From assembly GCA_012719745.1 (NCBI GenBank), contig JAAXZS010000117.1:1-43268 (forward strand): a stretch of 43,268 nucleotides of DNA, read 5' to 3'. This DNA comes from Clostridiales bacterium. Its GTDB lineage: Bacteria; Bacillota; Clostridia; Oscillospirales; Oscillospiraceae. Positions 11,893-36,153 of the stretch are shown here, piece by piece. The stretch's first letter is position 1, and every line of letters starts with the position of its first letter. The notes beneath the pieces were generated by a model. It saw only the letters and a list, made by a program, of their open reading frames with translations, had not been told where the DNA came from and did no database searches. The position numbers and the translations under genes were made by a program.

Positions 11893-13041
11893 ATGAAAAA
11901 ATGTATTGTTATTTCAGACTCCTTTAAAGGTACACTGACAAGCCGGGAGATCTGCTCTATTGCGCGGGAAAGCACCGTGTCCATCTTTCCGGCGTGTCAG
12001 GTGCTGACCATACCGGTGGCTGACGGCGGCGAGGGAACGGTGGCCTGCTACGAGGAGGCCTGCGGCGGCAGACGGATAAAGTGCCGGGTCAGCGGTCCGC
12101 TGGGAGAGACGGTGGATGCTGCTTATCTGCAACTGGAGGACGGCAGCGCCGTCATTGAAATGGCGTCGGCCGCAGGACTGCCCCTGATCGGGGAGAAAAA
12201 GGACCCTTGCCGTGCCACCACCTACGGCGTGGGGGAGGAGATTCTCGCAGCCATAGAGAGCGGCTGCCGGAAGATTATTTTGGGTCTGGGCGGCAGTGCC
12301 ACCAACGATGGCGGCTGCGGCTGCGCCGCGGCTCTCGGCGTCCGGTTCCTTAACGCAGAGGGCTGCGCCTTTGTTCCCACCGGCGCGACGCTGGATCAGA
12401 TTGTGACCATCGACGTTAGCGGTGCGGAAAAAACACTTGACGGTGTTTCCGTCGTCGCTATGTGCGATATTGACAATCCCCTTTACGGGCCGGAGGGCGC
12501 CGCCTGTATGTTTGCGCCGCAAAAAGGAGCGGATGCGGATACGGTGGCTTTTCTGGACGGGCAGCTCCGCCGGCTGGATCAGGCCATACAGAGGAACCTG
12601 CATAGGGAGACGGCACAGATGCCGGGCGCCGGCGCGGCGGGCGGCTTCGGCGCGGGGGCGGTCGCTTTTCTCGGCGCCCATTTGCGCTCCGGCATTGAGA
12701 CCATATTGGACACCGTGGGATTCGATGAGCTGCTGCGGGACTGTGATGTGGTGTTTACAGGAGAAGGATGCATTGACGAGCAGAGCGTACACGGCAAGGC
12801 TGTCAGCGGTATTGCCGGGCGCGCGAGAGCGCGGCACGTTCCGGTGGTGGCGGTGGCCGGGGGCATTACGGCGGAAGCGGAGAGGCGCTGTGCCGAGGAA
12901 AATACCGGTATCAGTGCGTTATTTTCTACCATCCGTCTGCCGGGAACCATGCAGGATATTGTGCCCCACAGCGCCGCGTTTTACAGGGCGGCCTTTGACA
13001 ACATTCTGCGCCTGATTGCCGTGGCGGAGCGGTTTAAATGA
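11893..13041 (+). CDS. glxK: Glycerate 2-kinase (GlxK/GarK family)
   Basis: Phosphorylates D-glycerate to 2-phosphoglycerate (in the GarK/GlxK family), feeding glycolysis. Its 382 residues match the family (about 380). Family motifs: DSFKGTLTSREICS at 9-22, PVADGGEGTV at 41-50, GLGGSATNDGGCG at 132-144, and MCDIDNPLYGPEGAA near 193-207. Near the C-terminus VFTGEGCIDEQSVHGK (a TGEGxxDxQ[ST]xxGK signature) is the catalytic region. The start ATG at 11893 follows GGAGGGCAATGGGTGC. It stands alone between a divergent regulator and a two-way terminator; no glyoxylate-pathway genes are next to it, so its physiological source of glycerate is unknown. Confidence 0.95.
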   Translation: MKKCIVISDSFKGTLTSREICSIARESTVSIFPACQVLTIPVADGGEGTVACYEEACGGRRIKCRVSGPLGETVDAAYLQLEDGSAVIEMASAAGLPLIGEKKDPCRATTYGVGEEILAAIESGCRKIILGLGGSATNDGGCGCAAALGVRFLNAEGCAFVPTGATLDQIVTIDVSGAEKTLDGVSVVAMCDIDNPLYGPEGAACMFAPQKGADADTVAFLDGQLRRLDQAIQRNLHRETAQMPGAGAAGGFGAGAVAFLGAHLRSGIETILDTVGFDELLRDCDVVFTGEGCIDEQSVHGKAVSGIAGRARARHVPVVAVAGGITAEAERRCAEENTGISALFSTIRLPGTMQDIVPHSAAFYRAAFDNILRLIAVAERFK

Positions 13042-13171: not shown

Positions 13172-13555
13172 TTAAAATTTCTCTGCCCGCTGAATGAGGC
13201 GGCTTACGCGCCAGGAAAGGCGCCGGCGCAGACGGGCCGGCCGGTTCATCAGCCACGCCATCACAAAGGTCATGACGAACAGAATGGCACCCGTCAGCAG
13301 ACGCTGGGTCAAATCGTAATTTTTGGTAATCAGCATACCAAAGACGAAAAAGAGAAAGGGGCCTATATAGGCGATGCGGGCAATACGGTCGTTCCGGGGC
13401 TGGGCGGAAGTCAGTTCCACCACGTCATTCCGCCGGGGTTTTTTATAATCGACCTCAGCGACCTCACGTCGCGAACTGGGTTGGCCATTCTCCCATGGAG
13501 CTACCTCAACATAACCGCTGGTAAACACATCGGTAACAGTCGCTCGCACAGACAT
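13172..13555 (-). CDS. Small membrane protein, RseC-like layout (127 aa)
   Basis: The N-terminal 55 residues are soluble and strand-rich (MSVRATVTDVFTSGYVEV), two membrane helices follow at about 62-80 and 84-102, and a very basic tail ends the protein (RPARLRRRLSWRVSRLIQ). This layout resembles RseC/MucC proteins (pfam04246), which are linked to electron-transfer or SoxR-reducing complexes, but the usual cysteines are absent, so the match is only architectural. The gene lies after an attenuator-type hairpin downstream of the AtoE-type transporter gene, and is probably the last gene of the sigma-54 operon. AAAGGAG precedes the ATG at 13553-13555. Function unknown. Confidence 0.6.
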   Translation of the reverse strand: MSVRATVTDVFTSGYVEVAPWENGQPSSRREVAEVDYKKPRRNDVVELTSAQPRNDRIARIAYIGPFLFFVFGMLITKNYDLTQRLLTGAILFVMTFVMAWLMNRPARLRRRLSWRVSRLIQRAEKF

Positions 13556-13572
13556 AACAGAATACTCCTTTC

Positions 13573-13620
13573 AAAAAAGCGCCGGGGGAGGAAGAGAGAG
13601 TGAAGGATCCTCCCCCGGCG
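13573..13620 (-). terminator. Terminator or attenuator between transporter and small membrane protein
   Basis: Minus-strand stem CGCCGGGGGAGGA / TCCTCCCCCGGCG (13580-13620), followed by CTTTTTT. It lies inside the apparent operon, so it likely reduces expression of the last gene relative to the transporter. Confidence 0.8.
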
Positions 13621-13642
13621 TGCTGGAAACGCAAGGAAACAA

Positions 13643-15031
13643 TTAGATAAACATGGGGATAAAGTACAGACCGAGGCAGACAATGACCAGCCAGAACACA
13701 CAAATGAAGGCCATGAAGCCCCAGACATCCTTCAGCTTCATGCCCACGACGGACAGAGCGGGGATGACATACAGCGGCTGCAGCAGGTTGGTGCACTCAT
13801 CACCATAGACAAAGGCGTTGAGGCAGTTGACCAGGTTGGCGCCGGGAATGCTCTTGGCGGCTGCCACGATCAGCGGACCCTGTACGGTGAACTGGCCGCC
13901 CTGAGAGGGGATGAACAGGTTGACAAGGCACGCGGACAGGAAGGAGAAGACGGGAAGCGTCTGAGCGGTGGCCACGGAAACCATGGCGTTGATGAGAACG
14001 GTACCCAGACCGTTTTCCACATACATCATGCCCATAATGGCGCCGTAGAAGGGGAACTGCAGCATGACATCGGTGGCCAGATGCATACTGGCGGCGTGCG
14101 CGGAGATCCATGCCCGGGGCTGGGGAAACAGGAAGCAGTTGATGCCCACAAACATGAAGATGACCAGGTTCATATTAAGAGCCTTCAGGAAGCCCTGAGT
14201 GACGATGGCATAGATGATGTACACAAAAATGAACAGGCCCACGATCCACATGATGGGTTTGCAGGCATTCATCTTGTCGGCAAAGGTTTCGGGCTTCTCA
14301 GTGATCTTGAAAGAATCGGGAACAGCTTCGGCCTGGGTGGCAATGTCGCCCAGCTCCACCAGCTCGCCCTCACCGGGACGGGTGAAGAGCACCAGCAGAA
14401 TGAAGCAGACAGCCAGCACACAGAAAAGAACAATGTTCATGGGATTGTAGCAGGTATCGGCCACGCTCATGCTCTGGCCAACGATCTTGGCATAGTTGCT
14501 GCCCTCAATGGCCAGATTGGAGTACAGGGTGGCGGAGGGCCCGAGGCACTGACCCAGGATCATGCAGGAGTAGCCGCCGGCTACCATCATGGGGAAGTGC
14601 AGACCCTTGATGCGCTTGGCCAGATGCATGGCCAGAATGGGGGTGACGATGGTGCAGAAAGCCCAGTTCAGCATGGAAGTCACATAGCCGAAGAGCATCA
14701 GCACGATAAGAGCCGCCGTGCGGGTGTTGACCAGCTTGGCAATGCCGTTAAGCAGCTTGGCAACCTGGGGACTGCGGGCGCAGGTGGCACAGACAATGAC
14801 CATCAGGCCCATCTGGAAAGCCAGAACGAACTGGCTGCTCAGACCGCCCCACCATGCTGTCAAAAGCTCAACAGGCCCTTTGCCGATGAACAGGGACAGC
14901 ACGAACACCAGGAGCATCAGTATAACGCAGAACACAAAAGAATCGGGAATGATTTTCTCAGCAGCGAAGTTAAACTTCTTGCTGATACGCCACAGAAGAG
15001 TTCCTCTGTCGGCAGTTTGTTTTTTTGTCAT
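13643..15031 (-). CDS. atoE: Short-chain fatty acid transporter, AtoE family
   Basis: Multi-span permease of the AtoE/TIGR00366 (pfam02667) family, which carries short-chain carboxylates such as acetoacetate and butyrate. It is 462 residues with about 12 hydrophobic segments. The family signature PSQGGQFTVQGP near residue 378 corresponds to PSGGGQWAVQGP in AtoE, with Gln in place of the second Gly. A cytosolic loop (GELVELGDIATQAEAVPDS) separates the two halves. The start ATG at 15031 follows AGAGGAAG. It follows the dehydrogenase gene by 76 bases in the BKACE operon, so I infer it imports the substrate of that pathway or exchanges it for product. Confidence 0.92.
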   Translation of the reverse strand: MTKKQTADRGTLLWRISKKFNFAAEKIIPDSFVFCVILMLLVFVLSLFIGKGPVELLTAWWGGLSSQFVLAFQMGLMVIVCATCARSPQVAKLLNGIAKLVNTRTAALIVLMLFGYVTSMLNWAFCTIVTPILAMHLAKRIKGLHFPMMVAGGYSCMILGQCLGPSATLYSNLAIEGSNYAKIVGQSMSVADTCYNPMNIVLFCVLAVCFILLVLFTRPGEGELVELGDIATQAEAVPDSFKITEKPETFADKMNACKPIMWIVGLFIFVYIIYAIVTQGFLKALNMNLVIFMFVGINCFLFPQPRAWISAHAASMHLATDVMLQFPFYGAIMGMMYVENGLGTVLINAMVSVATAQTLPVFSFLSACLVNLFIPSQGGQFTVQGPLIVAAAKSIPGANLVNCLNAFVYGDECTNLLQPLYVIPALSVVGMKLKDVWGFMAFICVFWLVIVCLGLYFIPMFI

Positions 15032-15107
15032 GGTTGGTTTCTCTTCCTCTCTTATTGATTTATTTATTTCCGGACGTCCTTGCTTCGTCCTTGAAAACAG
15101 AGGGGGA

Positions 15108-16037
15108 TTACTTGCCGTACAGCATACGGATCAGATATTCGTTGAGATCGGCGTTACACTTGTCGATCAGCTCGGGCGTCCATTTCTTAAAGCCCTCGCC
15201 GCTCTTAAAGCCCAGCTTACCCTCATCCAGCATCTTTTTCAGCAGGGGAGAGGGTTCGTGGCTGTCCTCCAGATGGGGCAGAACATAGGAATGGATGTTC
15301 CAGGTCAGCTGGGTGCCCACCATGTCGGAGTTCTCCAGAGCGGAGAGCTGGGGCAGACGGAGACCGAAGGAATTCTTGATGGCGATGTCCACCGTGTCGG
15401 CATCGGCGATGCCGTTTTCCACAATGGAGATGGCCTCACGCCACAGAGCGTGCTGCAGACGGTTGGCGATGAAGCCGGGCACATCCTTCTTGCAAAGAAC
15501 CGCCTTTTTGCCGCAGCTTGTCAGCGCTTCGATGACCTTCTCGGCCACGCCGTCGGCGGTGGCATCGGTCTTGACGACCTCCACCAGCGGGATCAAATGA
15601 CCGGGATTCCAGAAGTGGGTGCCCACAAAACGCTCCCGATGCTTCAGCTCGGAAGAAATCTCGCTGGGGCTCATCACGGAGGAATTGGTGCAGAACAGAC
15701 AGTCGGGACGGCAGCGGGCCTCCAGCTTGGCAAAGGTCTCGTGCTTGATCTTCATATCCTCAAACACGGCCTCAATGACCAGGTCGGCACGGCTGACCAG
15801 CTCGCTGTCAATGTCGGTGGTGAAGGAGATGCGGCTGAGGCACTCCTCCAGGAAATCCTCGGTGATAACGCCCTTTTCCACCAGCTGCTTGGTGCTGGTG
15901 CGAATGCCGGCATGAACGTCGGTTTCAAAAAGGTCATAGACGCCCACCCGGAAATTGGGGTTGGTGGACATGACATAGGCAATGTTCTTGCCCATGAGCC
16001 CCGCGCCGCAGACCAGAATATATTTGATGTCTTTCAT
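15108..16037 (-). CDS. NAD-dependent 3-hydroxyacid dehydrogenase (3-hydroxyacyl-CoA dehydrogenase superfamily)
   Basis: The N-terminal Rossmann fold has GAGLMG at 11-16 and acidic D35 for NAD specificity. The catalytic dyad appears as H141 and E153 in HFWNPGHLIPLVEVV. The closing helix motif DVPGFIANRLQ follows, then the C-terminal helical domain. At 309 residues it is longer than Hbd (about 282). HLIPLVE resembles lambda-crystallin/gulonate and carnitine dehydrogenases, which use free hydroxy acids, more than Hbd (HFFNPAPVMKLVE). Next to a BKACE enzyme, which needs a free beta-keto acid, it most likely makes that keto acid. Carnitine or another 3-hydroxy acid could be the substrate; 3-hydroxybutyryl-CoA dehydrogenase is the alternative. 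Start 15 bases after the zinc-ribbon gene. Confidence 0.85.
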   Translation of the reverse strand: MKDIKYILVCGAGLMGKNIAYVMSTNPNFRVGVYDLFETDVHAGIRTSTKQLVEKGVITEDFLEECLSRISFTTDIDSELVSRADLVIEAVFEDMKIKHETFAKLEARCRPDCLFCTNSSVMSPSEISSELKHRERFVGTHFWNPGHLIPLVEVVKTDATADGVAEKVIEALTSCGKKAVLCKKDVPGFIANRLQHALWREAISIVENGIADADTVDIAIKNSFGLRLPQLSALENSDMVGTQLTWNIHSYVLPHLEDSHEPSPLLKKMLDEGKLGFKSGEGFKKWTPELIDKCNADLNEYLIRMLYGK

Positions 16038-16052
16038 TGTAAAAGTGCCTCC

Positions 16053-16244
16053 TCAGTTGGCAGTGTCTTCATAATTGTTGGCGTCGGCGGGATAGGTTTT
16101 GCCGCTCTCTCCCACCAGCTCGCCCTCGGCGTGGCAGCACGGGCATCGACCGAACTCCGGCTCGGTGATGGTGTCTGCCCCCGATTTGAACCGTTTCCCG
16201 CAGATCGGGCAACGGTAAAAAAGCCAGTAAACGCCCCAGCTCAT
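16053..16244 (-). CDS. Zinc-ribbon protein (63 aa)
   Basis: Small protein with two CxxC pairs: CPIC at 12-15 and CPCC at 34-37, separated by 18 residues, the layout of a treble-clef or rubredoxin-like zinc ribbon. The N-terminus is aromatic (MSWGVYWLFYR) and the C-terminus acidic. It starts one base after the BKACE stop and ends 15 bases before the dehydrogenase start, so translation is coupled within the operon. I know no assigned function for such a protein in BKACE operons; it might regulate, chaperone zinc to the zinc-dependent BKACE enzyme, or bind a partner. Confidence 0.75.
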   Translation of the reverse strand: MSWGVYWLFYRCPICGKRFKSGADTITEPEFGRCPCCHAEGELVGESGKTYPADANNYEDTAN

Positions 16245-16245
16245 A

Positions 16246-17088
16246 TTACTTGTTCAGACCCAGAATCTCTCGTGCTTCGGCGGGAGTGGCGGGCTCGTTG
16301 CCGTACTCGCGAATCACGCGTGCGGCACGCTCAACGAACTGAACGTTGCTTGCGGCCAGCTGGCCTTTGGCATACATCACGTTGTCCTCCATACCCACGC
16401 GGATATGACCGCCCAGCGCCACGGCACCGTAGAGCACCTCCATGGCGGAGTGACCCACGCCGAAGCAGCTCCACGTGGAACCGGGGCACAGGTTTTCCAT
16501 GGTTTCCTTCATGAAGAGCAGGTTCTTCAGAGAGCCGGGAATGCCATTGGCGCAGCCCATGCAGAACTGGAAGTGCAGAGGAGCCTTCAGTACGCCTTTT
16601 TTCAGATAGTAGGCGGCATTGGCAATCATACCGGGATCAAAGGCCTCAATTTCGGGCTTCACGCCCCACGCCTGCATGTTCTGACCCAGCTCCTCCAGGA
16701 ACTTGGGGTGGTTAATGAACAGGCTGGAATGCAGCCAGTTCATGCTGCCACAGTCGAAGGAGCCCATTTCGGGACGCAGCTCTTTCAGGTGTGCCTGGCG
16801 GGTCTCATCCGTGGCATTCAGATCACCGGAGGTGGTCATGTTCAGGATGATGTCGCAATCGGGATGGTTTTTGCGCAGCAGCTCCGCCGTTTCGCGGAAC
16901 TTGTCGGCGCTCATAGTGCCGTTGCCCGCGTCGTCACGCATGTGCAGATGCGCCATGGCGGCGCCAGCCTTCCAGCAGGCATATACGTCTTCGGAAATTT
17001 CGGCAGGGGTCATAGGAACGTTGGGATTGTCCTTCTTCTTGGGCCACGCACCGGTGGTGGCGACCGTAATAATGGTTTTCTTGGCCAT
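16246..17088 (-). CDS. Beta-keto acid cleavage enzyme (BKACE, DUF849 family)
   Basis: Zinc-dependent TIM-barrel enzyme of pfam05853, which condenses a beta-keto acid with acetyl-CoA and releases acetoacetyl-CoA plus an acid. 280 residues, as in Kce (3-keto-5-aminohexanoate cleavage). Zinc ligands H47 and H49 lie in HLHMRD, with E234 in RVGMEDN. Gatekeeping residues that set the substrate cannot be read confidently. The lysine-fermentation genes that accompany Kce (kamA, kamDE, kdd, kal) are absent, so a different beta-keto acid is likely. The gene is first in an operon after a clear sigma-54 promoter; AGGTG precedes the ATG at 17086-17088. Confidence 0.93.
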   Translation of the reverse strand: MAKKTIITVATTGAWPKKKDNPNVPMTPAEISEDVYACWKAGAAMAHLHMRDDAGNGTMSADKFRETAELLRKNHPDCDIILNMTTSGDLNATDETRQAHLKELRPEMGSFDCGSMNWLHSSLFINHPKFLEELGQNMQAWGVKPEIEAFDPGMIANAAYYLKKGVLKAPLHFQFCMGCANGIPGSLKNLLFMKETMENLCPGSTWSCFGVGHSAMEVLYGAVALGGHIRVGMEDNVMYAKGQLAASNVQFVERAARVIREYGNEPATPAEAREILGLNK

Positions 17089-17141
17089 AACAAAACACCT
17101 CGCGAAAAAAAGTTGGGAAGTAATCTCACTGTTTATTTACA

Positions 17142-17158
17142 TACAAATTCCGTGCCAA
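17142..17158 (-). promoter_or_regulatory. Sigma-54 (-24/-12) promoter of the BKACE operon
   Basis: Minus-strand TTGGCACGGAATTTGTA. It matches the consensus TGGCACG-N4-TTGC with GG and GT separated by ten bases; only the C of the -12 GC is T. It lies 54 bases before the BKACE start and downstream of the gene for a sigma-54 activator. Confidence 0.88.
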
Positions 17159-17246
17159 ATGGCCCCGAAAAGCAAAAAAACATTTAACATGCTGTCGGGA
17201 TAAGGAATTCGCTGATTTTTTAACAATCATGAAATACAAAAAATGG

Positions 17247-17280
17247 GGGCTATGTGTTGAAGTATTTCAACGCATAACCC
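17247..17280. promoter_or_regulatory. Upstream activator site: palindrome for sigma-54 activator
   Basis: GGGCTATGTGTTGAA, four bases, TTCAACGCATAACCC: 13 of 15 positions match as an inverted repeat. It is centred about 110 bases upstream of the -24 box, the usual distance for enhancer sites. Extra TGTTGAA half-sites occur at 17340-17346 (reverse), 17368-17374 and 17389-17395. The 312-base gap between the activator and BKACE genes holds nothing else. Confidence 0.75.
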
Positions 17281-17400
17281 TCGATTTTTACAAATTGAAA
17301 GTAATCAGCAGAAGGGGCATGACTAAAACTTGCTGTGTTTTCAACAAATTATAACAAAAAAGAATATTGTTGAAAAATATCACCTATATGTTGAATAATT

Positions 17401-18921
17401 TCACCGGGCAGGCAACCCTTTTTGGCTGTGTACCGCTTTTTCATAGCTTTGACACTTTTTAGCCAGCGTGGAATGATCTACGCCCAGTACCTTGGCAGCC
17501 TTGCGGAGAGAGCCTTCCCGGGCCAGTGTTTCCAAAATAATCTCTTTTTCGTAGGCACCGACGCGGGCACGCAGATTCAGCGTGTCAGTTTCGGGCGTCA
17601 CGGCCTCCACAGTGGGATAAAGGGCGAGGGATACATCCCGCCGGGTAATAGCGCCGCTCATATTGGTGACCACCAGCCGTTCCAACAGGTTTTCCAGTTC
17701 CCGGATATTGCCGGGCCAGTCGTAGTCCGTCAGCACCTGCATGGCGTCGCCGGTAATGACGGCAGCTTTCCCGTATTTTTCCCCGAAGCGCCGGCAAAAC
17801 TCACCAGCCAGGGCGGGGATGTCCTCCCGCCGCTCCCGCAGAGGGCGCATCATCACCGGCACCACGTTCAGCCGGTAATAGAGATCCTCCCGGAAGGTGC
17901 CCCGGCGCACCTCCTCCAACAAATCCTTGTTGGTGGAGGCAATGACCCGAATATTCAGCTTGGTGGGTTTTGTACCGCCGATACGCAACAGCTCCCGTTC
18001 CTGCAACACACGCAGCAGCTTAGGCTGGAGAGTCAGGGGCAGATCACCGATTTCGTCCAGCAGGATCACACCTGTGTCCGCCAGCTCAAAAAGTCCGGCC
18101 TTACCGGAGCTGCGCGCCCCTGTAAAGGCACCGGGGGCATAGCCGAACAGCTCCGATTCCAGCAGTTCCGACGGAATGGCGGCACAGTTCACCTTAATAA
18201 AGGGCTTGCCTTTTCGGCTGCTGTGCTGGTAGATCTCTTCGGCAATCAGCTCTTTGCCGGTGCCGGACTCGCCGGTGATGAGGACGGTCACATCCGCGCC
18301 GGACACCGACTGCACCAGCTCCATCACAGAGCGCATGGCCTTTGAACGGTACACCATGCGATGCCCGCCGGCCTGCAGTGAGCGCAGATAACTCAGCTCC
18401 TCGTTGGCGCGCTCCGACTCCTGTGCCATGGACAACAGCTGCTGCTCCATCCGCTTAAGCTCCGGAAAATCCCGGGTGTTGGTAACCACCAGACGGATGT
18501 TTCCCTGCCGGTCAAAAACGGGGGTGCCCGTCACCAACACTTCCTTGTCAAGACCCTTGATCAGAGCCACCGAGTTGACCTGTTCCCGCCGCTTAAGTAC
18601 CTGCGCGGTGACGGAGCCGCGATAGAGCACGCCCTCGGCCTCAATATCGGCCACCCGGCGCCCCAGTATCTGCTCGGGACGGATACCGGTGGTGCGGGTG
18701 TAGGCCTTGTTGATGAAGATGACCCGGCCTTCCCCGTCAGTGATGTGGATGCCGTCATAGAGGTTATCGCAGATTTCCCGAAAATCGTAGTAGCCGTCCT
18801 GAAAGTCCGACAGCAGCCGCGCTACCTTGGCCAGTTGGTTTGTCTGATCGGTGTCGGCGATGATCCGCCGCAGTCCGGTCAGTTCCTGGGACAGTTCGCT
18901 CAGTACCTGTTCTTCAATCAT
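17401..18921 (-). CDS. Sigma-54-dependent transcription activator with PAS domain
   Basis: Enhancer-binding protein that activates the -24/-12 promoter of the operon directly downstream. The N-terminal coiled region (1-48) leads to a PAS domain (about 50-155: [19 protein letters not shown]) and a linking helix. The AAA+ domain has Walker A GESGTGKE (217-224), the sigma-54 contact GAFTGA (264-269) and Walker B LLDEIGD (287-293). A C-terminal Fis/TyrR-type helix-turn-helix (about 465-490: [19 protein letters not shown]) reads the site. The PAS domain probably senses a small ligand, plausibly the pathway substrate. It lies 31 bases after the AEC transporter gene and probably shares its transcript. 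Confidence 0.93.
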
Positions 18922-21031: not shown

Positions 21032-22126
21032 TTACTGAACGTTGACCGTGCGCTGGAAGGTGTCGATCCAGCCGGTCTTGGCGGTGGCAATATAGCTTTC
21101 GTCAAATTCCTTCAGCGCCTTGATGGCGTCTTCCCCAAAGGCCAGGTAGGTCTTCAGCTCATCGGCCATGGTGGCGTTCTTATTGACAGGAGCCTCGTTG
21201 AGAGTGGAAGCAATCTTGTTCTGGGTATCGTTGGAGATCAGATATTCCACAAACAGCTGAGCAAGCTCGGAATTCTTGCAGCCCTTCACCACGTTGACAG
21301 AGGCGGGAGCAGCGAAGGAACCTTCGGCGGCGTCCACCCAGGCCATGTTAAGGCCGCTCTTGGTGAGGCCGGGCATGTTGATGTCCATGAAAACGGCAAT
21401 GTTGGCTTCGCCCGTGGTAAAGGCGGTAACCACATCGGAGGAAGTGCTGTACCACAGATCAATGTTGTCCTTCTTTTCCTGCATCAGCGTCATGGCGGCG
21501 GATACGTCCTCCTGGCTGCCACCCATGGCCTCGGCCATGGCTACCAGCATGTAGGGGCCGGCGGTGGAGGTCATGTCGGGCAGAGCGACCATGCCGGCAT
21601 ACTTGTCGTCAAACAGATCCTGATAGGAGGTGGGGGTGGGCAGACCGGCGTTTTTCAGCGCGTCCACATTGTACATAATGCCGTAACGGCACACGGAGTA
21701 GCAGGGGCCGTAGCCGTCGGCGTTGACGGCAAAATCATAGAGATTGCCAAGATCCGTCACAACGGAGGTGTCAATCTTCTCAAAAAGACCGGCCTGGTTG
21801 CCGGTTTCGGCAAAGCTCTTGGTCAAAAGCGCCACATCGGCAGTGGGAGCGTCCTTTTCGGCCATCAGCTTGTTGAGACGGTCGCCGTTGCCGCTGGTGG
21901 GGTCAACAACGATGGTGCAGTTGTAGGTCTTCTCGAAGTCCTCGGCAAGGCTCTTCAGACCGGCTTCCGCCCAGCCCCAAGTGGCAACCACCAGCTCGGC
22001 GCCGCCGAAATCCTTGTTGCTGCCAGAATTGGTGCCGGTGTCCGTATTGCCGGTTTTTCCGCAGGCGGTGAGCCCCAGAAGTACGGCGGCTGTCAAAGCC
22101 AGAGCCATTAAACGTTTTTTCATCAT
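21032..22126 (-). CDS. potD: ABC transporter substrate-binding lipoprotein (PotD-like)
   Basis: Extracellular solute-binding protein of the spermidine/putrescine/iron type. Start taken at the ATG 22124-22126, ten bases after GGAGG; a GTG at 22130-22132 is in frame but only four bases from that site. Lipobox LTAC around residue 20 follows a hydrophobic signal. The mature protein opens LVVATWGWAEAGLKSLAEDFEKTY-like, the classic fold of type 2 binding proteins. The conserved polyamine-binding residues are not clearly present, so the ligand may be an anion, metal complex or another cation. Last in the ade-permease-permease-ATPase operon, its start overlapping the ATPase gene end region. Confidence 0.9.
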   Translation of the reverse strand: MMKKRLMALALTAAVLLGLTACGKTGNTDTGTNSGSNKDFGGAELVVATWGWAEAGLKSLAEDFEKTYNCTIVVDPTSGNGDRLNKLMAEKDAPTADVALLTKSFAETGNQAGLFEKIDTSVVTDLGNLYDFAVNADGYGPCYSVCRYGIMYNVDALKNAGLPTPTSYQDLFDDKYAGMVALPDMTSTAGPYMLVAMAEAMGGSQEDVSAAMTLMQEKKDNIDLWYSTSSDVVTAFTTGEANIAVFMDINMPGLTKSGLNMAWVDAAEGSFAAPASVNVVKGCKNSELAQLFVEYLISNDTQNKIASTLNEAPVNKNATMADELKTYLAFGEDAIKALKEFDESYIATAKTGWIDTFQRTVNVQ

Positions 22127-22128
22127 GT

Positions 22129-23205
22129 TCACTGTTCCTCCATAGTATTTTTATATACACAGATCCGATTGGCGGGAAAATGTACCAGAACATGATTCCC
22201 GTTTTCCTTCTCCGTATAATCACTGACGGCGGGATACACCATCTCGTCAAAGCATCCCTTGACCTCAAGACGGGTGGCGTGGCCCCGATAGGTGGCGCTT
22301 TGTACAACGCCGGACACTGTGTTTTCGCCCGGTTCATCGGTGAGACAAATATTTTCCGAGCGGATGGTCAGCGTACAGGGTGTACCGCTGTCAAGACCCG
22401 CGGCAGCCGCTTCCGGCACAAAAAGCGTGTGCCCGCTGCACACAACCGGCCGTTTCCTGTTTTCGGGAAGGCCGATGGTGCCGTGAATAAAGGTAGAAAA
22501 GCCCATAAAATCCGCCACAAAGGCGCTGGCGGGCCGGTCAAAGATCTCCTGGGGAGAGCCAATCTGCAAAATGCGGCCCGCGTTCATGACGATGACCCGG
22601 TCGGCCAGAGATACGGCCTCCTCGTGATCGTGGGTCACAATGATGGTGGTGATGCCCAGCTCCGTTTGAATGCGTTTGATCTCCACCTGCATCTCCACCC
22701 GGAGCGTGGCATCCAGGTTGGAAAGAGGCTCGTCCAGAAGTAAAATGGAGGGTCGGGTTACCAGCGCCCGGGCCAGCGCCACACGCTGCTGCTGCCCGCC
22801 GGAAAGCTCCCGGGGATAGCGCTTGTCAAAGCCGGTCAGCTTCACAAGACCCAGAATACTCTCCACACGCTCCTTGATCTCGTTCTTGGGAAGCTTTTGC
22901 AGCTTCAGGCCGAAGGCCACGTTTTCAAAGACGGTCATGTGGGGGAAAAGGGCGTAATTCTGAAAAAAGATGCCGATGTTGCGCTTATAGGGGGGGATTT
23001 TCGCGACATCCTTTCCGCTTACCAGAATGGAGCCTGAAAAGGGCTCCGTAAAACCGGCGATCATCCGCAGGGTGGTGGTTTTACCGCAGCCGCTGCCGCC
23101 CAGCAGGGCGATCATCTCCCCCTCCGCCACGGAAATGTTCATATTGTCCACAGCGGTGAAGTCGCCGAATTTCTTGGTCAGATTTTTTAATTCCAAAGTA
23201 GCCAT
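22129..23205 (-). CDS. potA: ABC transporter ATP-binding protein (PotA-like)
   Basis: ATPase of the binding-protein-dependent importer. Walker A LLGGSGCGKTT at about 34-44, Q loop FFQNYALFPH, signature LSGGQQQRVALARAL, Walker B LLLDEPLSNLD and switch histidine in VTHDHEE. A C-terminal TOBE-like regulatory domain (about 240-355) completes the 358 residues, normal for PotA/MalK-type proteins. It starts 18 bases after the second permease gene. Sequence detail GGSGCGKTT is typical of the polyamine/iron branch. Confidence 0.95.
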   Translation of the reverse strand: MATLELKNLTKKFGDFTAVDNMNISVAEGEMIALLGGSGCGKTTTLRMIAGFTEPFSGSILVSGKDVAKIPPYKRNIGIFFQNYALFPHMTVFENVAFGLKLQKLPKNEIKERVESILGLVKLTGFDKRYPRELSGGQQQRVALARALVTRPSILLLDEPLSNLDATLRVEMQVEIKRIQTELGITTIIVTHDHEEAVSLADRVIVMNAGRILQIGSPQEIFDRPASAFVADFMGFSTFIHGTIGLPENRKRPVVCSGHTLFVPEAAAAGLDSGTPCTLTIRSENICLTDEPGENTVSGVVQSATYRGHATRLEVKGCFDEMVYPAVSDYTEKENGNHVLVHFPANRICVYKNTMEEQ

Positions 23206-23223
23206 GTCAGTCTGCCTTTCTGC

Positions 23224-24018
23224 TTATTTCACAAACATGTCCAACCCAATAAACTTTTCCATCAGGACAATGAGAATGAGAGAGCCCAGAATCAAAAGGG
23301 TGGAAATAGCCGCCAGCGTGGGGTCAAAGGTCAGCTCCATGTAGTTCATGATGCGGATGGGAAGGGTAATGAACCGGGGGGTGGAGAGCAAACTGCTCAG
23401 CGCCACCTCATCAAAGGAGTAGAGGAAGGCCAGCAGTGCCCCCGCCAAAACGCCGGGCTTGGCCAGCGGAATGGGGATCTTGAAGAAAACCTGCACGGGA
23501 TTGGCACCCAGCGAGGTGGCCGCGTCCTCCAGCGTCCAGTTGAAAACGTGGAGCACCGACACGGTGTTGCGCACGATATAGGGCAAAATAATCACAAAAT
23601 GGCCGATGAACAGGCGCAGCATACCGGGCACGCCGCCGATCTGGCTGTAAATTTGCAGCAGCACAAAGGCGAAGGCCACGCTGGGCACATACATGGGGGA
23701 GGTGAAATAGTTCAAAAGCGCATTTTTGCCTTTGAAATCATACCGGCAGATGGAAAGCGCCGCCGTCACACCCAGCAGCACATCCAGCGCCGTGGCCAGC
23801 AGGCCGATCTTCAGGCTGTTGCCCAGACCCTCCATGAAATGGGTGGAGGAGTGAAAAATATTGGCGTACCACGCAAGGGAAAAACCCTTGGGCGGGAAGG
23901 TTACCACTGCCGTAGGGGTAAAGGAGGCGATGACGATCACCACCAGTGGCGCCAGCAGGAAGATCATGACCAGCACGGCAATGAGACAACTGAACCAGCC
24001 GGTTCTCTTTTCACGCAT
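23224..24018 (-). CDS. potC: ABC transporter permease (PotC-like)
   Basis: Integral membrane subunit with six predicted helices, 264 residues. The ATPase-contact EAA loop is EDAATSLGANPVQVFFKIPIP (quoted in part: DAATSLGANPVQVF) about residue 173. It overlaps the upstream permease gene by eight bases, so translation is coupled. It pairs with PotB-like and PotA-like subunits encoded on either side; the substrate cannot be named. Confidence 0.93.
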   Translation of the reverse strand: MREKRTGWFSCLIAVLVMIFLLAPLVVIVIASFTPTAVVTFPPKGFSLAWYANIFHSSTHFMEGLGNSLKIGLLATALDVLLGVTAALSICRYDFKGKNALLNYFTSPMYVPSVAFAFVLLQIYSQIGGVPGMLRLFIGHFVIILPYIVRNTVSVLHVFNWTLEDAATSLGANPVQVFFKIPIPLAKPGVLAGALLAFLYSFDEVALSSLLSTPRFITLPIRIMNYMELTFDPTLAAISTLLILGSLILIVLMEKFIGLDMFVK

Positions 24019-24847
24019 TTTTACCGCCTCCCATCCGTTTCATATAGCCGGAGGTGGACAGAACCACCGCCACCTGTACCGCCAGTATGGTCAAAAGCAG
24101 AATATAACTGATGGCGGAGGCGGCGCCCCAGTTGAAGTTTACGTTGATCTCCTGCACCACCATGGTGGCCATCATGCGGAACTTGGAGCCGCCCAGCAGT
24201 TTGGGCGTCACATAGGAGGTCATGCTCATGGTGAAAACCAGCACGCAGCCGGAAATGATGCCGGGCATACTCAGGGGAAAGACCACCTTGGTGAAGGTCT
24301 TGGCGGGACTTGCCCCCAGACTGTAGGCCGCGTATTCCACGTTGGGATCAATGCTTTGCAGCACGCCCACAAGGGACAAAATCATATAGGGGATCAGCAG
24401 GTGGATCATGCCGATGACCACCGCCGCCTCAGTATTGAGAATTTTCAGCGGCTGTGAGAGGAGGCCGATACCCTGCAAAAACTGATTAAGAATTCCGTTG
24501 GTGCCCAGAATGACCATCCAGCCGTAGGAACGTACCACCGCACTGACCAGAAAGGGAAACAAGATGACGATCATCATCACGTTTTTCAGCTTGGAACGGG
24601 TGCGGGCAATGAAGTAGGCGGCGGGATACCCCAGCAGCAGGGAGATCAGGGTGGAAATCAGGGAAACACGAACGGTGGTCCACAAAATGTTCAAATAGAA
24701 AGGGTCAGTAAAAAATTTGGTGAAATCGGCAAACCCGTTTACCAGCAGTGTCTTGATGAGTATGTACACCATGGGAATCAGAAAGAAAACAAGAAGGGCC
24801 AGCACCGTGGGCAGCGCCAATAAAAATGCCCGGCGTTTACGTTCCAT
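24011..24847 (-). CDS. potB: ABC transporter permease (PotB-like)
   Basis: Membrane subunit of the same importer: 278 residues, about six helices, EAA loop YAAYSLGASPAKTFTKVV around residue 172. The ATG starts immediately after the adenine deaminase stop (TAAATG), with AGGAGG inside that gene's end, so the two are translationally linked. The first residues MERKRRAF are basic, consistent with an internal N-terminus. Confidence 0.93.
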   Translation of the reverse strand: MERKRRAFLLALPTVLALLVFFLIPMVYILIKTLLVNGFADFTKFFTDPFYLNILWTTVRVSLISTLISLLLGYPAAYFIARTRSKLKNVMMIVILFPFLVSAVVRSYGWMVILGTNGILNQFLQGIGLLSQPLKILNTEAAVVIGMIHLLIPYMILSLVGVLQSIDPNVEYAAYSLGASPAKTFTKVVFPLSMPGIISGCVLVFTMSMTSYVTPKLLGGSKFRMMATMVVQEINVNFNWGAASAISYILLLTILAVQVAVVLSTSGYMKRMGGGKNA

Positions 24848-26602
24848 TTATGCGTCCTCCTTTACTTCCTCAATCAGGGACAGAAATTGCTTGTTTGTGA
24901 CGTCCAGCAGTCCCCGGTCCGTACATTTGATTTCCGGTGAGACGGCCAGGGGCATGATGGTGAAAAAAGCCATGGGATTGGTATGGCAGAAACCCATGCG
25001 GCGGCAGACCGCCAGAAAACCGTCCAGCTTTTCCAGCAGGACAGAGGGCGGATCCTCGCACATAAGACCGGCCAGCGGCAGCGGAATGCGGGCGGTCACA
25101 CAGCCGTTTTCCACGGCGCAGATGCCGCCCTGCATGGCAATGACCTCGTTGGCGGCAAGTGCCATATCGTTGTCGTCACCGCCGTATACGGTAAGATTGT
25201 GGCAGTCGTGGCCGTAGGTCAGGGCTACCGCGCCGCGCACATTGTCCATGCCGTCGATGAGAGCCAGCCCCCGCTGCTTTTTGCCGTAGCGGTTGCACAC
25301 CGCCATTTTTAAATAAGGAGCGGTGGTCACAAGACCCTCCGGATTTATGGGAAGCAGTCGCTGCACCCGCCGGGTGCGGACGGAGACGCCGTCCTGACCG
25401 ATAAAGTTTGCACGGGCAAAACCGCCACGAAAACCCTTTGGTACGGTGTGAGAGACGGTGAAATCTGCGGGTGTAAGGGGCGGAAGGTTGACACTGTGGC
25501 GCAGAGCCGACGAAAGCGGCGGCGATGACAGCTGAGGAAGGAACCGACCGCTTTCAAAAACAATTTCCCCGCCGGAGACCACCAGCCGGGGCTTAAATTC
25601 GGTCAGATCATCTGTGAGAAGTATATCCGCCCGCATACCGGGGGCGATGCCGCCCGCATCGTAAAGCCGCAGCCGCTGGGCGGGATTGATGGTGGCATAC
25701 CGGACGGCACGGAGGGGGTCCAGCCCCAGTGCCACAGCCTTCGCCGCCACATGGTTCAGGTGCCCGTCGTGCATCAAGCGGGGCAGGGGCACATCGTCCG
25801 TCACCAGACAGATCCGGTTTTGGAGGGGAACGGTATTCATGGCCGCCACCAGATCCGGATTGAGCATACATTCCTGAATCTGGACGGTAAACCCCAGCGC
25901 CAGCTCCTCTTGCAGCTTTTCCGCGGTGCCCAGTGTATGATCGCTGTCGATACCGGCGGCGCGAAAGGCCTGCAAACGCCGGCCGGTGAGAACGGAGGCG
26001 TGGCCATCCAGCAGGCAGCCCCGGCGGGCACCCGTCTCCACCACCGCGCAGATACGCTCGTCGCCGCCCGCCACGCCGTTGAAGTCCATAACCTCCCCTA
26101 AGCCGTGGATGCCGGGCAGATCCAGCAGGCGCTCCATCTCGGTGGCGTCTACTGCGTAGCCGCCATCCTCAAATCCCGGCGCGGAGGGAATAGTGGAAGG
26201 AGCCATGATCAAAATCCGCAGAGGAAGTCCTCCGGCAGCCTTTATCAGCGCCTCCACACCCCGACGTCCCAGCACATTGGCAATCTCATGGGGGTCGGCC
26301 GCTACCGTGGTGGTACCGCAGGGCAGAACCACCGAGGCGAAGTGAGCGGGGGTCAGCATACTGCTTTCCAAATGCATATGGGAATCAATGAAGCCCGGCA
26401 GAGCAAAACGCCCGCCGCCGTCCACCTCCCGCTTTGCTGTAAGGGAGGAATCCTCGTCGCCCGCATAGGCAATGCGGTCACCCACCAGACCGATGCAGCC
26501 GGACACAACGGTGTCGTTGTAGACATTGACAATCCGCACATGACGGATCAAAAGATCAAAAGGGTGTTCGCCCAGCACAGCTTGTATAACAGACGCCAGC
26601 AT
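24848..26602 (-). CDS. ade: Adenine deaminase
   Basis: Metal-dependent amidohydrolase that turns adenine into hypoxanthine and ammonia. Start at the ATG 26600-26602 after GGGAGTGGAG; the frame can extend nine codons, with no stronger site. Metal-binding HMH at 75-77 in DSHMHLESS, then ADPHEIANV, GEVMDFNGV, the GHA motif and SDHT. The C-terminal adenine deaminase domain (VTYGHDCHN-like region and NEVIAMQGG) is present. The 584-residue length fits the Ade family. It heads the operon with the polyamine-type transporter, an unusual pairing, and is divergent from two M20 amidohydrolases; purine salvage linked to an imported compound is a possible theme. Confidence 0.93.
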   Translation of the reverse strand: MLASVIQAVLGEHPFDLLIRHVRIVNVYNDTVVSGCIGLVGDRIAYAGDEDSSLTAKREVDGGGRFALPGFIDSHMHLESSMLTPAHFASVVLPCGTTTVAADPHEIANVLGRRGVEALIKAAGGLPLRILIMAPSTIPSAPGFEDGGYAVDATEMERLLDLPGIHGLGEVMDFNGVAGGDERICAVVETGARRGCLLDGHASVLTGRRLQAFRAAGIDSDHTLGTAEKLQEELALGFTVQIQECMLNPDLVAAMNTVPLQNRICLVTDDVPLPRLMHDGHLNHVAAKAVALGLDPLRAVRYATINPAQRLRLYDAGGIAPGMRADILLTDDLTEFKPRLVVSGGEIVFESGRFLPQLSSPPLSSALRHSVNLPPLTPADFTVSHTVPKGFRGGFARANFIGQDGVSVRTRRVQRLLPINPEGLVTTAPYLKMAVCNRYGKKQRGLALIDGMDNVRGAVALTYGHDCHNLTVYGGDDNDMALAANEVIAMQGGICAVENGCVTARIPLPLAGLMCEDPPSVLLEKLDGFLAVCRRMGFCHTNPMAFFTIMPLAVSPEIKCTDRGLLDVTNKQFLSLIEEVKEDA

Positions 26603-26671
26603 TAAGCTCCACTCCCTTCTGACTGACATAAGCGCTGCTTATATTAATTTCACTAAAACAGAATGTAGATT

Positions 26672-32230: not shown

Positions 32231-33943
32231 TTATTCGTGCAGCAGAGAGCAGGCGGCTGAGGCCGCTTTGGCGGCGTCCGGTGTATAGGCGTCCGCTCCG
32301 ATCTCATCGCAGAATGCCTGCGTAATGGGCGCACCGCCCACCATGACCCGTACCCGGCCGGAAAGGTCGCTGTTGCGCACCAACTCCACCACATGGCGCA
32401 TCTCCGGCATGGTAGTGGTCAAAAGCGCGGAACAGGCGATAATGCCGCAGTGCTGATCCCTTGCCGCGTGCAAAAAGGTTTCCGGTGCCACATCCACCCC
32501 CAGATCCACTACCTCCAGACCGCTGCCCTCCATCATGATTTTTACCAGATTTTTGCCAATGTCGTGCATGTCGCCCCGCACGCTGCCCAGGCATACCCGC
32601 CCGGCGGGGCCCTCGGTTCGGGTGAAAAGGGGCTTGAGAAGCTCGGTGGCGGCGTTCATGCACCTGGCAGCCACCAGCATTTCAGGGACAAAGACACGGC
32701 TTGCCGAAAAATCCTCGCCAAGACGGGTCATGCCGTCCACCAGACCACCGGAGAGAATATCCTCCGCCGCGATCCCGCTATCAAGCGCCTCCTGACAAAG
32801 CTGAAGAACTTTTTTCTTCTGCCCCTTACGCAGGGCGGCGCTAAGCTGCTGGAGTACAGGCGCTGCCGAGGCTGTCTCTGCAACCGCTTCGGGCGCTGCT
32901 GCCACCGCCGCCGTGCGCCGGGGAACGGCACGGGAAATTGGAAAGCGGGGCAGATGAACCACACTGTTGTAGGCGTCGATCTCCGCGTCGATGGCCGGGT
33001 CCACCTGAGGAAATACCGCGCCGGGGACGCCGTAGGTGATGCAGGGAATATAGTGCCCGCCGGGGCAGTTTTCGGCAAGAGCGCGGCGGACATAGGCGCG
33101 GATCTCCGCTTCGCCTGCATTCTGACGGTCAATGGCGGCACCGATGCCGCCCATCAGAATAAGGCGGCCACCCAGACGCTCCTGCAGGGAGGGGATATCG
33201 TTTTCCGGCAGGACACCCTGCCACGCCTGAATGCCGATTTCCACCATGTCTTCCACGATGGGGGCCAGAAAAGAATCCGCGTGGTGGATGGCGACGACGC
33301 CCCGGGAGCGGATGTAGCCGTAAAACTTGCGATAAGGCTCCTTAAAAAAGGCTCGCCACATTTCCGGCTTCATGAAAAGCGACTCCTTGGCGCCCCAATC
33401 GTCATGGGACAACAGCGCATCCGGGTGCAGGTGGTCAATAAGTAACTTCGCCTGGGTGATCCGGTAATCGGTGATGACGTCGATAAGCCGGTGCATCTCA
33501 TCGGGATGTTCATAGAGGTTGGTCAGTGTATCCTCAAAGCCCATGAGAAAGTGGCACTGCTCAAAAATACCAGTGCCCATAAAGGCGGTGAGCAGCTTTT
33601 CCCGCCGATCCACCTTCGCAGCACTCTCCAGACATGTTTCCCAGCCGTCGGCGCAGTTTTTTTCCAGATCCGGCACATGCACATAGTCCTGCCAACGGGT
33701 GATGTCCGGGCAGACCTTGTTTTCCGGCGTAATATGGGGCATGGCGCCGGGGGCGTCCTCCGGAAAGAGAATCGTGGTGCCCCAGCGATCCACACTGGTG
33801 AAGCCCCGACGGCGGTTGCCCCGCAGATAGGTATTGACCGGATCGGTAAAAACCAGTGAAAGCGCCTCGTACTGTTTCAGTACCCGCTCCGGCTCTCCAA
33901 CTGGGGTCAGCAGTGTTTCAAAGAGTTCTCTTGCAGTTGCCAT
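32231..33943 (-). CDS. Fused corrinoid methyltransferase: UroD-type domain plus corrinoid-binding protein
   Basis: 570 residues with two normally separate parts. Residues 1-345 are a UroD/MtaA-type TIM barrel that transfers methyl groups to corrinoid (it contains IHHADS and PGAVFPQVDP and lacks normal UroD features). After an Ala/Pro-rich linker (about 350-375), residues 375-570 form a B12-binding module: helical cap, then a Rossmann fold with the DMHDIGKN motif (cobalt-binding His about 461) and GSGLEVVDLGVDV. Standard systems (MtaABC, MtvABC) encode these on separate genes. The likely donor is a methylated compound such as a methoxy-aromatic, a methylamine or a betaine; which is unknown. 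The gene overlaps the DUF2284 gene by 26 bases, and the RACo-type gene is divergent. Confidence 0.88.
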   Translation of the reverse strand: MATARELFETLLTPVGEPERVLKQYEALSLVFTDPVNTYLRGNRRRGFTSVDRWGTTILFPEDAPGAMPHITPENKVCPDITRWQDYVHVPDLEKNCADGWETCLESAAKVDRREKLLTAFMGTGIFEQCHFLMGFEDTLTNLYEHPDEMHRLIDVITDYRITQAKLLIDHLHPDALLSHDDWGAKESLFMKPEMWRAFFKEPYRKFYGYIRSRGVVAIHHADSFLAPIVEDMVEIGIQAWQGVLPENDIPSLQERLGGRLILMGGIGAAIDRQNAGEAEIRAYVRRALAENCPGGHYIPCITYGVPGAVFPQVDPAIDAEIDAYNSVVHLPRFPISRAVPRRTAAVAAAPEAVAETASAAPVLQQLSAALRKGQKKKVLQLCQEALDSGIAAEDILSGGLVDGMTRLGEDFSASRVFVPEMLVAARCMNAATELLKPLFTRTEGPAGRVCLGSVRGDMHDIGKNLVKIMMEGSGLEVVDLGVDVAPETFLHAARDQHCGIIACSALLTTTMPEMRHVVELVRNSDLSGRVRVMVGGAPITQAFCDEIGADAYTPDAAKAASAACSLLHE

Positions 33944-34521: not shown

Positions 34522-34551
34522 TTGACAGAAAGAAAGCATCCTGTGTATAGT
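34522..34551 (+). promoter_or_regulatory. Sigma-A promoter of the RACo/HMT genes
   Basis: TTGACA (34522-34527), 18 bases, TATAGT (34546-34551) on the plus strand in the divergent gap to the DUF2284 gene. The start codon (GTG 34621) follows about 70 bases later. Confidence 0.72.
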
Positions 34552-34620
34552 AGAATAAAAAGTCAAAATAGACAAAGTGTGATATATTTATTTATGCAAT
34601 TATACAAAAGGAGGCTGGCC

Positions 34621-36153
34621 GTGTCAACCGTTACTGTGATACAAAAGGGAGAATCTACCTCCTTTTTGGCCGAAAAGCAGGAAAATCTTCTGCTGTTTCT
34701 CCGGGAAAACGGAATATTTGTGGACGCACCCTGCGGCGGTCACGGTCGGTGCGGCAAATGCCGCGTCCTGCTGCGGGACGGCGGCGGGGAGCGGAGGGTC
34801 AACGCCTGCCAGACCTATATAGAGGGGGACTGTACGGTGGTGCTGCCCCAGGGAAGCACCACCGTCTGCCTTGTGGCGAATGAACGGCATGGAGGTACGG
34901 GACAGCCTGGCTTCGGCGCGGCCGTGGATCTGGGTACCACCACCGTGGCCATGCAGCTTTGCGATCTGTCCACCGGTGCGGTGCTTGCTGCCGCCGGAGA
35001 GCGCAATGCCCAGTGCGCCTACGGAGCGGATGTGGTGACGCGGCTTTCCTATGTGCGAGAGTATCCGACGGGAAATGAGAGGCTTTCCGGCTTGCTCACC
35101 GGGCAGATCACCCGGATGCTGGAGGAACTCTGCGAAAAGGCGGGCCTTGCGCCCCAAAGCGTCACGGAGATCACAGTAGCGGGGAACACCATCATGCAGC
35201 ATTTTCTCTCTGGCCTTTCACCTGCCGCCATGGCCGTGGCTCCCTTTACGGCGGTTACCCTCTTTGAAGAAGATACACTTTATCGGCGGCCCGGCCTGCC
35301 GGCGCTGCATCTGGCTCCCTGCGTTTCCGCCTATGTTGGCGGCGATATTGTGGCAGGGCTGTACGCCTGCGGCGGCGGGGTAACGGAAGAGACCACGCTG
35401 TTTCTGGACATCGGCACCAACGGTGAAATGGCGCTGGGAAACCGAGAGGGCTTTTTGTGCTGCGCCGTGGCCTGCGGCCCCGCCTTTGAGGGGGCGGAGA
35501 TCACCTGCGGTATGGCCTGCGAGGAGGGTGCTCTCACCCACGTTCGCTGGGAAAAGGGCAGTTTCGTCATGGAAACGGTGGGACAGGTTCCCCTGCGAGG
35601 TATCTGCGGCTCGGGGCTCATTGACCTGCTGGCGGTTTTGCTGCGCCTGGGCGGCGTGGATGAGGGCGGCCGCCTGCTGCCGCCAGAGGAAGCACCGGGG
35701 AGTCTTGGCCGATGGCTGGAAGAAGACAAAAACGGCAACGGCATTTTGTATCTCAATGAAGAACGGACGGTGTATCTCACCGCCGGTGATGTGCGTAAGA
35801 TGCAGCTGGCCAAGGCCGCTGTGGCGGCGGGCATCACGATACTGCTGGAAAAGGCGGGGAAGACGGTGGAGGCCGTCGACCGGGTATGCCTGGCGGGGGG
35901 CTTCGGCAGCCGGATTGCCCCCGAGAGTGCCGCCGCGGTGGGAATGCTGCCGCCGGCGCTGACAGCTAAAATTCAGGGCGTGGGAAACGCCTCCCTTTCC
36001 GGAGCGGCGGCCATGCTGCTAATACCGGAGGCGCGGTCTGATATGGAGAGAATACAACGAAACAGCCGCTATTGCGAGCTGTCCGGGGACAGGGCCTTTC
36101 AAGAGGCTTTTGTGAATTATATGATGTTTGAAAATGAGGAGGAATCGCTATGA
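34621..36153 (+). CDS. Corrinoid activation protein (RACo/DUF4445-type, ferredoxin plus ASKHA domain)
   Basis: Reductive activator of corrinoid proteins: an N-terminal plant-type 2Fe-2S ferredoxin (C38, C44, C47, C63 in DAPCGGHGRCGKCRVLL) passes an electron to oxidised Co(II) corrinoid, driven by the C-terminal ATPase. ASKHA motifs: VDLGTTTVAM, DIGTNGEMALG, GSGLIDLLAVLL and LAGGFGSRI, ending with the DUF4445 tail. Start chosen as GTG 34621, six bases after AGGAGG; the frame opens 33 codons earlier without such a site. 510 residues. Needed to reactivate the corrinoid of the divergent methyltransferase, and its end overlaps the next gene by four bases (ATGA). Confidence 0.9.
   Translation: MSTVTVIQKGESTSFLAEKQENLLLFLRENGIFVDAPCGGHGRCGKCRVLLRDGGGERRVNACQTYIEGDCTVVLPQGSTTVCLVANERHGGTGQPGFGAAVDLGTTTVAMQLCDLSTGAVLAAAGERNAQCAYGADVVTRLSYVREYPTGNERLSGLLTGQITRMLEELCEKAGLAPQSVTEITVAGNTIMQHFLSGLSPAAMAVAPFTAVTLFEEDTLYRRPGLPALHLAPCVSAYVGGDIVAGLYACGGGVTEETTLFLDIGTNGEMALGNREGFLCCAVACGPAFEGAEITCGMACEEGALTHVRWEKGSFVMETVGQVPLRGICGSGLIDLLAVLLRLGGVDEGGRLLPPEEAPGSLGRWLEEDKNGNGILYLNEERTVYLTAGDVRKMQLAKAAVAAGITILLEKAGKTVEAVDRVCLAGGFGSRIAPESAAAVGMLPPALTAKIQGVGNASLSGAAAMLLIPEARSDMERIQRNSRYCELSGDRAFQEAFVNYMMFENEEESL

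Follow-up and report, generated by a model that had tools for sequence, protein, structure and literature searches.

The window analysed here, a stretch of 43,268 nucleotides, is one contig (JAAXZS010000117.1) of a metagenome-assembled genome (MAG) from a Clostridiales bacterium (GCA_012719745.1; 2.46 Mb, 189 contigs, 91.5% complete). An operon on its minus strand encodes, in order, a predicted sigma-54-dependent activator, an enzyme of the BKACE family, a small zinc-ribbon protein, a dehydrogenase of the 3HCDH family, a transporter of the AtoE family and a protein of 127 residues (Table 1). The genes, gene order and -24/-12 promoter reported in a preliminary description of this region were all confirmed, the -12 half being weak. 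The proposal made there, that the operon is regulated and serves a free 3-hydroxy acid, first oxidized by the dehydrogenase and then cleaved by the BKACE, is likewise supported by the present analysis.

Table 1. Features of the operon and its control region, in window coordinates.
Feature	Position	Strand	Evidence or remark
Whole operon	13172-18921	minus	all genes named in the preliminary description present
127-residue open reading frame after the transporter, RseC-like	13172-13555	minus	PF04246, sub-threshold (21.7 bits against a cut-off of 24.4)
AtoE / short-chain fatty acid transporter family	13643-15031	minus	PF02667, 2.9e-78
Predicted (S)-3-hydroxy-5-oxohexanoate dehydrogenase (TfD), 3HCDH family	15108-16037	minus	PF02737, PF00725; contains HFWNPGHLIPLVEVV
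Zinc-ribbon open reading frame, 63 residues	16053-16244	minus	sequence contains CxxC pairs
BKACE, predicted triacetate acetoacetate-lyase (TAL)	16246-17088	minus	PF05853, 3.8e-106; Trp15; pocket identical to cluster TALs; tree
-24/-12 element TGGCACGGAATTTGTA	17142-17157	minus	weak -12 (TTGT for TTGC); conserved in type A relatives
Palindrome GTTGAAGTATTTCAAC, candidate activator site	17256-17271		TGAAN4TTCA type, kept in most type A relatives
Palindrome GTTGAATAATTTCACC, candidate activator site	17390-17405		overlaps the end of the activator gene
Predicted sigma-54-dependent activator (PAS, AAA+, C-terminal helix-turn-helix)	17401-18921	minus	Sigma54_activat 3.4e-69, PAS 3e-09, HTH_50 4.1e-08

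Clostridium scatologenes degrades phloroglucinol by means of PGR, DPGC, TfD and TAL, and (S)-3-hydroxy-5-oxohexanoate and triacetate are known intermediates of the pathway (Zhou et al. 2023, PMC10470551). A search yielded 268 stretches that encode relatives, of which the best 80 loci (79-92% identity) were used, their flanks being annotated by BLAST against reference proteins. The closest loci are labelled Intestinimonas, Candidatus Intestinimonas or Oscillospiraceae in the public collection. Loci and TALs are called cluster loci and cluster TALs where they adjoin the phloroglucinol ring-opening genes PGR and DPGC. Type A loci combine a TAL with either a kindred activator (at least 55% identity) upstream or an AtoE (at least 70%) nearby, and have no PGR or DPGC (at least 60%) close by. 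Activator and AtoE counts within type A are thus circular, because both define the class; counts of residues, promoters, palindromes and DPGC are not. The best 80 loci hold 81 TAL-like rows at 70% identity or more: 48 beside PGR or DPGC, 16 of type A and 17 other or unclear. The set of 20 distinct type A and 56 distinct cluster TALs used below also includes loci beyond these 80.

The BKACE belongs to its fold family by a wide score (PF05853, 354.9 bits against a cut-off of 24.8) and shares with Kce both this family and the zinc-binding pair His47 and His49. It differs from Kce at Glu14, where it has Trp15. The TAL of C. scatologenes (UniProt A0A0E3M5J5), whose activity has been assayed, has Trp16 at this place (PMC10470551). 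Tryptophan stands there in all 20 distinct type A and all 56 distinct cluster TALs of the alignment, and the window enzyme is 75-89% identical to the 56 distinct BKACEs that adjoin PGR and DPGC. A test for pocket residues that set type A TALs apart looked for columns whose commonest residue differs between the two sets and reaches at least 60% in each. No such column exists in the alignment (20 versus 56), and the pocket of the window BKACE is indistinguishable from those of cluster TALs. After removal of BKACEs below 70% identity, of duplicates (124 rows reduced to 97) and of one short row, the label type A changes 12 times over a phylogenetic tree of 96 rows, and at least five of these changes are forced by well-supported branches. 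Type A TALs, interleaved with cluster TALs, therefore do not form a clade of their own, and the separate clade that was looked for was not found in this tree.

The dehydrogenase resembles 3-hydroxybutyryl-CoA dehydrogenase (Hbd) in fold family and in the catalytic serine, histidine and asparagine, here Ser120, His141 and Asn192. It departs from Hbd at the asparagine that contacts CoA (reference Asn217), which is Arg227, and in a stretch where HLIPLVE replaces the Hbd sequence; reference Lys55 corresponds to Val57. Another 3HCDH protein, encoded in the same genome, served as the reference for the CoA-contact asparagine. Retention of the three catalytic residues together with the change to arginine is common to every copy of the dehydrogenase compared, 19 of type A and 47 from clusters. 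The TfD of C. scatologenes (UniProt A0A0E3GQA2), also assayed, likewise keeps the catalytic histidine, serine and asparagine and is missing two CoA-contact residues (PMC10470551). A TfD is present in 18 of the 20 type A units, in a gene-content count in which the entries for the window were made manually. No curated NCBIfam cut-off is reached by the dehydrogenase, and all 19 models that match it score below theirs.

A role in lysine fermentation was rejected. The BKACE falls short of the Kce model NF052387 (289 against 382 bits), and the same genome holds a true Kce, with Glu14, on contig C78 (423.6 bits). That contig carries a lysine cluster comprising lysine 2,3-aminomutase, both subunits of lysine 5,6-aminomutase, diaminohexanoate dehydrogenase and Kce, each above its NCBIfam cut-off. 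The BKACE is thus distinct from Kce, as had been supposed; clustering of the BKACE with Kce and of the dehydrogenase with Hbd, which the preliminary description had named as speaking against its proposal, did not occur.

The best case for assigning phloroglucinol steps to the type A enzymes is made by genomes in which the pathway appears to be split. Six of 17 type A genomes searched have both DPGC (79-81% identical to the query) and PGR (67-84%); the other 11 have neither at that level. Both genes occur in nine of nine control genomes with cluster loci, and neither in the two type B genomes. In the six split genomes PGR and DPGC lie in HxlR-cupin-PGR-DPGC clusters, with no match to TAL or TfD in the 13-14 kb read around each, and in four of the six the type A TAL is the only TAL of at least 60% identity. 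Here the type A unit would supply the missing half of the phloroglucinol pathway. A wider count in 400 genomes of the family found TAL in 56 (E ≤ 1e-120) and DPGC in 53 (E ≤ 1e-100). Four further type A genomes in this set (G139, G269, G300 and G436), in which PGR was not searched, are not among the 53 with DPGC. In total, DPGC is found in 6 of 21 type A genomes and was not found in 15; several of the genomes other than these four are incomplete MAGs.

Taken with the likeness of the two enzymes to those of C. scatologenes, namely a BKACE with tryptophan for Glu14 of Kce and a 3HCDH dehydrogenase without the CoA contact, and with the close relatives of both that adjoin PGR and DPGC, these observations make it likely that the BKACE is a TAL, the dehydrogenase a TfD, and the operon the downstream half of the phloroglucinol route. 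The preliminary description took the substrate to be new or carnitine-like. It is probably neither and is predictable from known enzymes, because Trp15, the relatives beside PGR and DPGC and the split-pathway genomes all point to the opened phloroglucinol acid, (S)-3-hydroxy-5-oxohexanoate, and to triacetate. The general statement made there that BKACEs release acetoacetyl-CoA also needs amendment, since these enzymes release acetoacetate and an acyl-CoA (PMC11961710). The acyl-CoA is acetoacetyl-CoA only when triacetate is the substrate (PMC10470551).

Several points weigh against this assignment. It is a prediction from sequence, for which the window proteins were compared with the C. scatologenes enzymes through published residues. 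The BKACE misses the cut-off of NCBIfam NF053538, a model named for 3,5-dioxohexanoate cleavage (198 against 430 bits); that model seems to describe another lineage, because two TALs inside phloroglucinol clusters miss its cut-off too (208 and 217 bits). Two of the six split genomes have a second TAL copy (79% and 81%), and two share an identical TAL, so that the six are not all independent. The window's own genome yielded no match to DPGC or to the cyclase family, and its best PGR match reaches 28% identity; a complete phloroglucinol pathway is thus not found there. AtoE also occurs in four of the six type A genomes that have ring-opening genes; it is therefore not specific to presumed scavengers. 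Finally, the cluster loci are an imperfect comparison for the control region, as described next.

The operon differs from the C. scatologenes cluster in lacking PGR, DPGC, the HxlR regulator and the cupin, in place of which it has a sigma-54 activator, a -24/-12 element and an AtoE transporter. Sigma-54 control is predicted from the activator, the -24/-12 element and a sigma-54 gene, all three of which are present in the window's genome; eight of eight genomes tested have a sigma-54 gene. The best NCBIfam match of the activator is PrdR, below cut-off (412 against 795). The window has a single match to TGGCACN5TTGYW, which is weak by itself because 6 of 100 shuffled sequences also had one; its support lies in conservation among relatives. 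An element scoring at least 13 of 15 lies 54-120 nucleotides before TAL in 19 of the 20 distinct type A loci. The twentieth, L020, first scored 10 of 15 owing to a false upstream ATG and scores 14 of 15 over the corrected stretch, which brings the count to 20 of 20, a second look that was not given to the 56 cluster loci. None of those 56 reaches a score of 13, a weak control because a cluster TAL often lies inside an operon. In the other classes this score is reached in two of three type B, three of 11 unclassified and none of three type C loci; of three type C2 loci, one has no such element and two have too little upstream DNA.

Two palindromes that the preliminary description did not mention may be sites for the activator; none of 100 shuffled sequences had two. 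The core TGAAN4TTCA, mostly as GGTGAA-N4-TTCACC, occurs upstream of TAL in 15 of the 20 type A loci (0.11 expected from shuffles) and in none of the 56 cluster regions (0.17 expected), a comparison that shares the limit just given. Elsewhere it was seen in one of 10 unclassified loci and in none of three type B and three type C loci.

Families, residues, synteny and promoter conservation were computed here, and the following reactions are proposed by analogy with the characterized enzymes of C. scatologenes. TfD would oxidize (S)-3-hydroxy-5-oxohexanoate to triacetate, which TAL would cleave with acetyl-CoA to acetoacetate and acetoacetyl-CoA; a CoA-transferase and a thiolase would carry these products on to acetate and butyrate fermentation. 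The activator would switch on its own operon through the palindromic sites and the -24/-12 promoter. In genomes that encode PGR and DPGC at another site, the unit would complete a split pathway. In genomes such as the window's, where neither was found, the cell may take up the ring-opened acid released by neighbouring phloroglucinol degraders, perhaps by means of AtoE, a step that we put forward tentatively. The operon as a whole would then be dedicated to cross-feeding, allowing gut bacteria unable to open the ring to import and cleave (S)-3-hydroxy-5-oxohexanoate, an idea to which we give slightly less than even odds. Judging from PMC10470551, such a scavenger would not have to spend NADPH on reducing phloroglucinol and would keep the oxidative half. 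AtoE may import the free acid or, alternatively, transport acetoacetate.

Two other explanations are unlikely, to a similar degree. The same enzymes could receive triacetate or the hydroxy acid from a precursor other than phloroglucinol opened by neighbours, such as triacetic acid lactone after hydrolysis. Three loci (L039:2532-8843, L054:2487-8843 and L071:2478-8843) combine TAL with a different cyclase-family hydrolase, a sodium symporter, an acetyl-CoA hydrolase/transferase and a thiolase and show no TfD match; one may speculate that in these clusters a substrate, perhaps triacetic acid lactone, is hydrolysed directly to triacetate. Hydrolases of this kind occur in genomes G348 (one, 59% identical to that type) and G269 (two, 55% and 41%), and the window's genome holds two TALs. 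The proposal is opposed by the absence of any cyclase-family protein from the window's genome and from G139, and by the retention of TfD in most type A units, since triacetate itself would not need it.

The ring-opening genes could also be present in the species and missing from the draft assembly, in which case the unit would be the second half of a split pathway. The fragmented state of the MAG allows for this, as does the finding of DPGC elsewhere in 6 of 21 type A genomes. Against it stand G139 and G269, 99% complete in seven contigs and one contig, which carry the unit and show no DPGC match at the cut-off used, PGR not having been searched there. No cyclase-family protein was found in G139, and the three in G269 are only 23-31% identical to DPGC. 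Both genomes carry the same genus label as G348, to which the Intestinimonas-labelled contig L014 belongs.

A different free 3-hydroxy acid as substrate, the view taken in the preliminary description, is very unlikely. Carnitine catabolism, too, is built on a BKACE and a dehydrogenase for a free acid. The same plan is used in deoxyribonate catabolism, which requires a glycerate kinase (PMC6365646), and a glycerate kinase gene lies beside the operon (11893-13041). Both readings were set aside, given carnitine 3-dehydrogenase models whose cut-offs lie far above the scores of the dehydrogenase (NF005716, 130 against 592 bits; NF005471, 106 against 414), a glycerate kinase without a match in the related loci annotated, some of which have short flanks, and a BKACE pocket like that of cluster TALs.

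The zinc-ribbon protein has no match in Pfam or NCBIfam. Its relatives, of 62-68 residues with two CxxC pairs, are conserved directly after TAL in many loci: 15 of 20 type A and 34 of 56 cluster loci have an open reading frame with this CxxC...CxxC pattern behind TAL (in each group one of these is cut short). A text search for 'zinc' in the available part of PMC10470551 found no mention of such a protein. Several type A units end with a relative of the 127-residue protein.

TAL genes occur in other settings as well. The second TAL of the window's genome (79%; L094:8135-9426, contig C77) precedes the first part of a second AtoE. On a different contig of this genome (C114, L103:751-7135) lie the remainder of an AtoE, a thiolase, a further sigma-54 activator, a dehydrogenase of 44% identity and a protein whose nearest PDB relative is 4-hydroxybutyryl-CoA dehydratase (1u8v). 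In L075 a TAL, an AtoE, a dehydrogenase, a thiolase and a dehydratase-like gene are all together. Three closely spaced BKACE genes (about 51%, 85% and 35% identical to that of the window) follow a sigma-54 activator in L031:6078-9765 and L049:3749-7450. Elsewhere in the window, 32231-33943 and 34522-36153 encode a URO-D/B12-binding protein and a RACo-type corrinoid reactivation protein, as in methyltransferase systems, and ABC importer genes (binding protein, ATPase and two permeases) at 21032-26629 adjoin an adenine-deaminase-like amidohydrolase.

TAL and TfD were reported in 2023 from a single cluster (PMC10470551), the only paper that searches of the open-licence literature gave for TAL by name or for Kce with phloroglucinol. 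As far as that literature was covered, the novelty lies in how the genes are arranged: TAL, zinc ribbon, TfD and AtoE form a unit apart, with a sigma-54 activator of its own. No stand-alone TAL-TfD-AtoE operon was found in the titles and abstract openings listed there. In these bacteria, most of which yielded no ring-opening half, the acid-processing half of the pathway forms a unit by itself with its own regulator. If scavenging occurs, it would be an overlooked hand-over point in the breakdown of polyphenols in the gut, and surveys based on PGR and DPGC would miss part of the users. Cross-feeding would mean that polyphenol carbon is shared after ring opening and feeds butyrate producers without ring-opening genes. 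According to the available text of PMC7710108, variants related to Intestinimonas were enriched with quercetin, I. butyriciproducens showed no detected degradation of quercetin, and whether this species uses products such as phloroglucinol is not known. Cross-feeding, if it takes place, could explain why relatives of Intestinimonas rise with quercetin though its degradation has gone undetected in the genus. The operon provides a genetic lead on whether Intestinimonas uses a breakdown product of quercetin, the question left open in that text.

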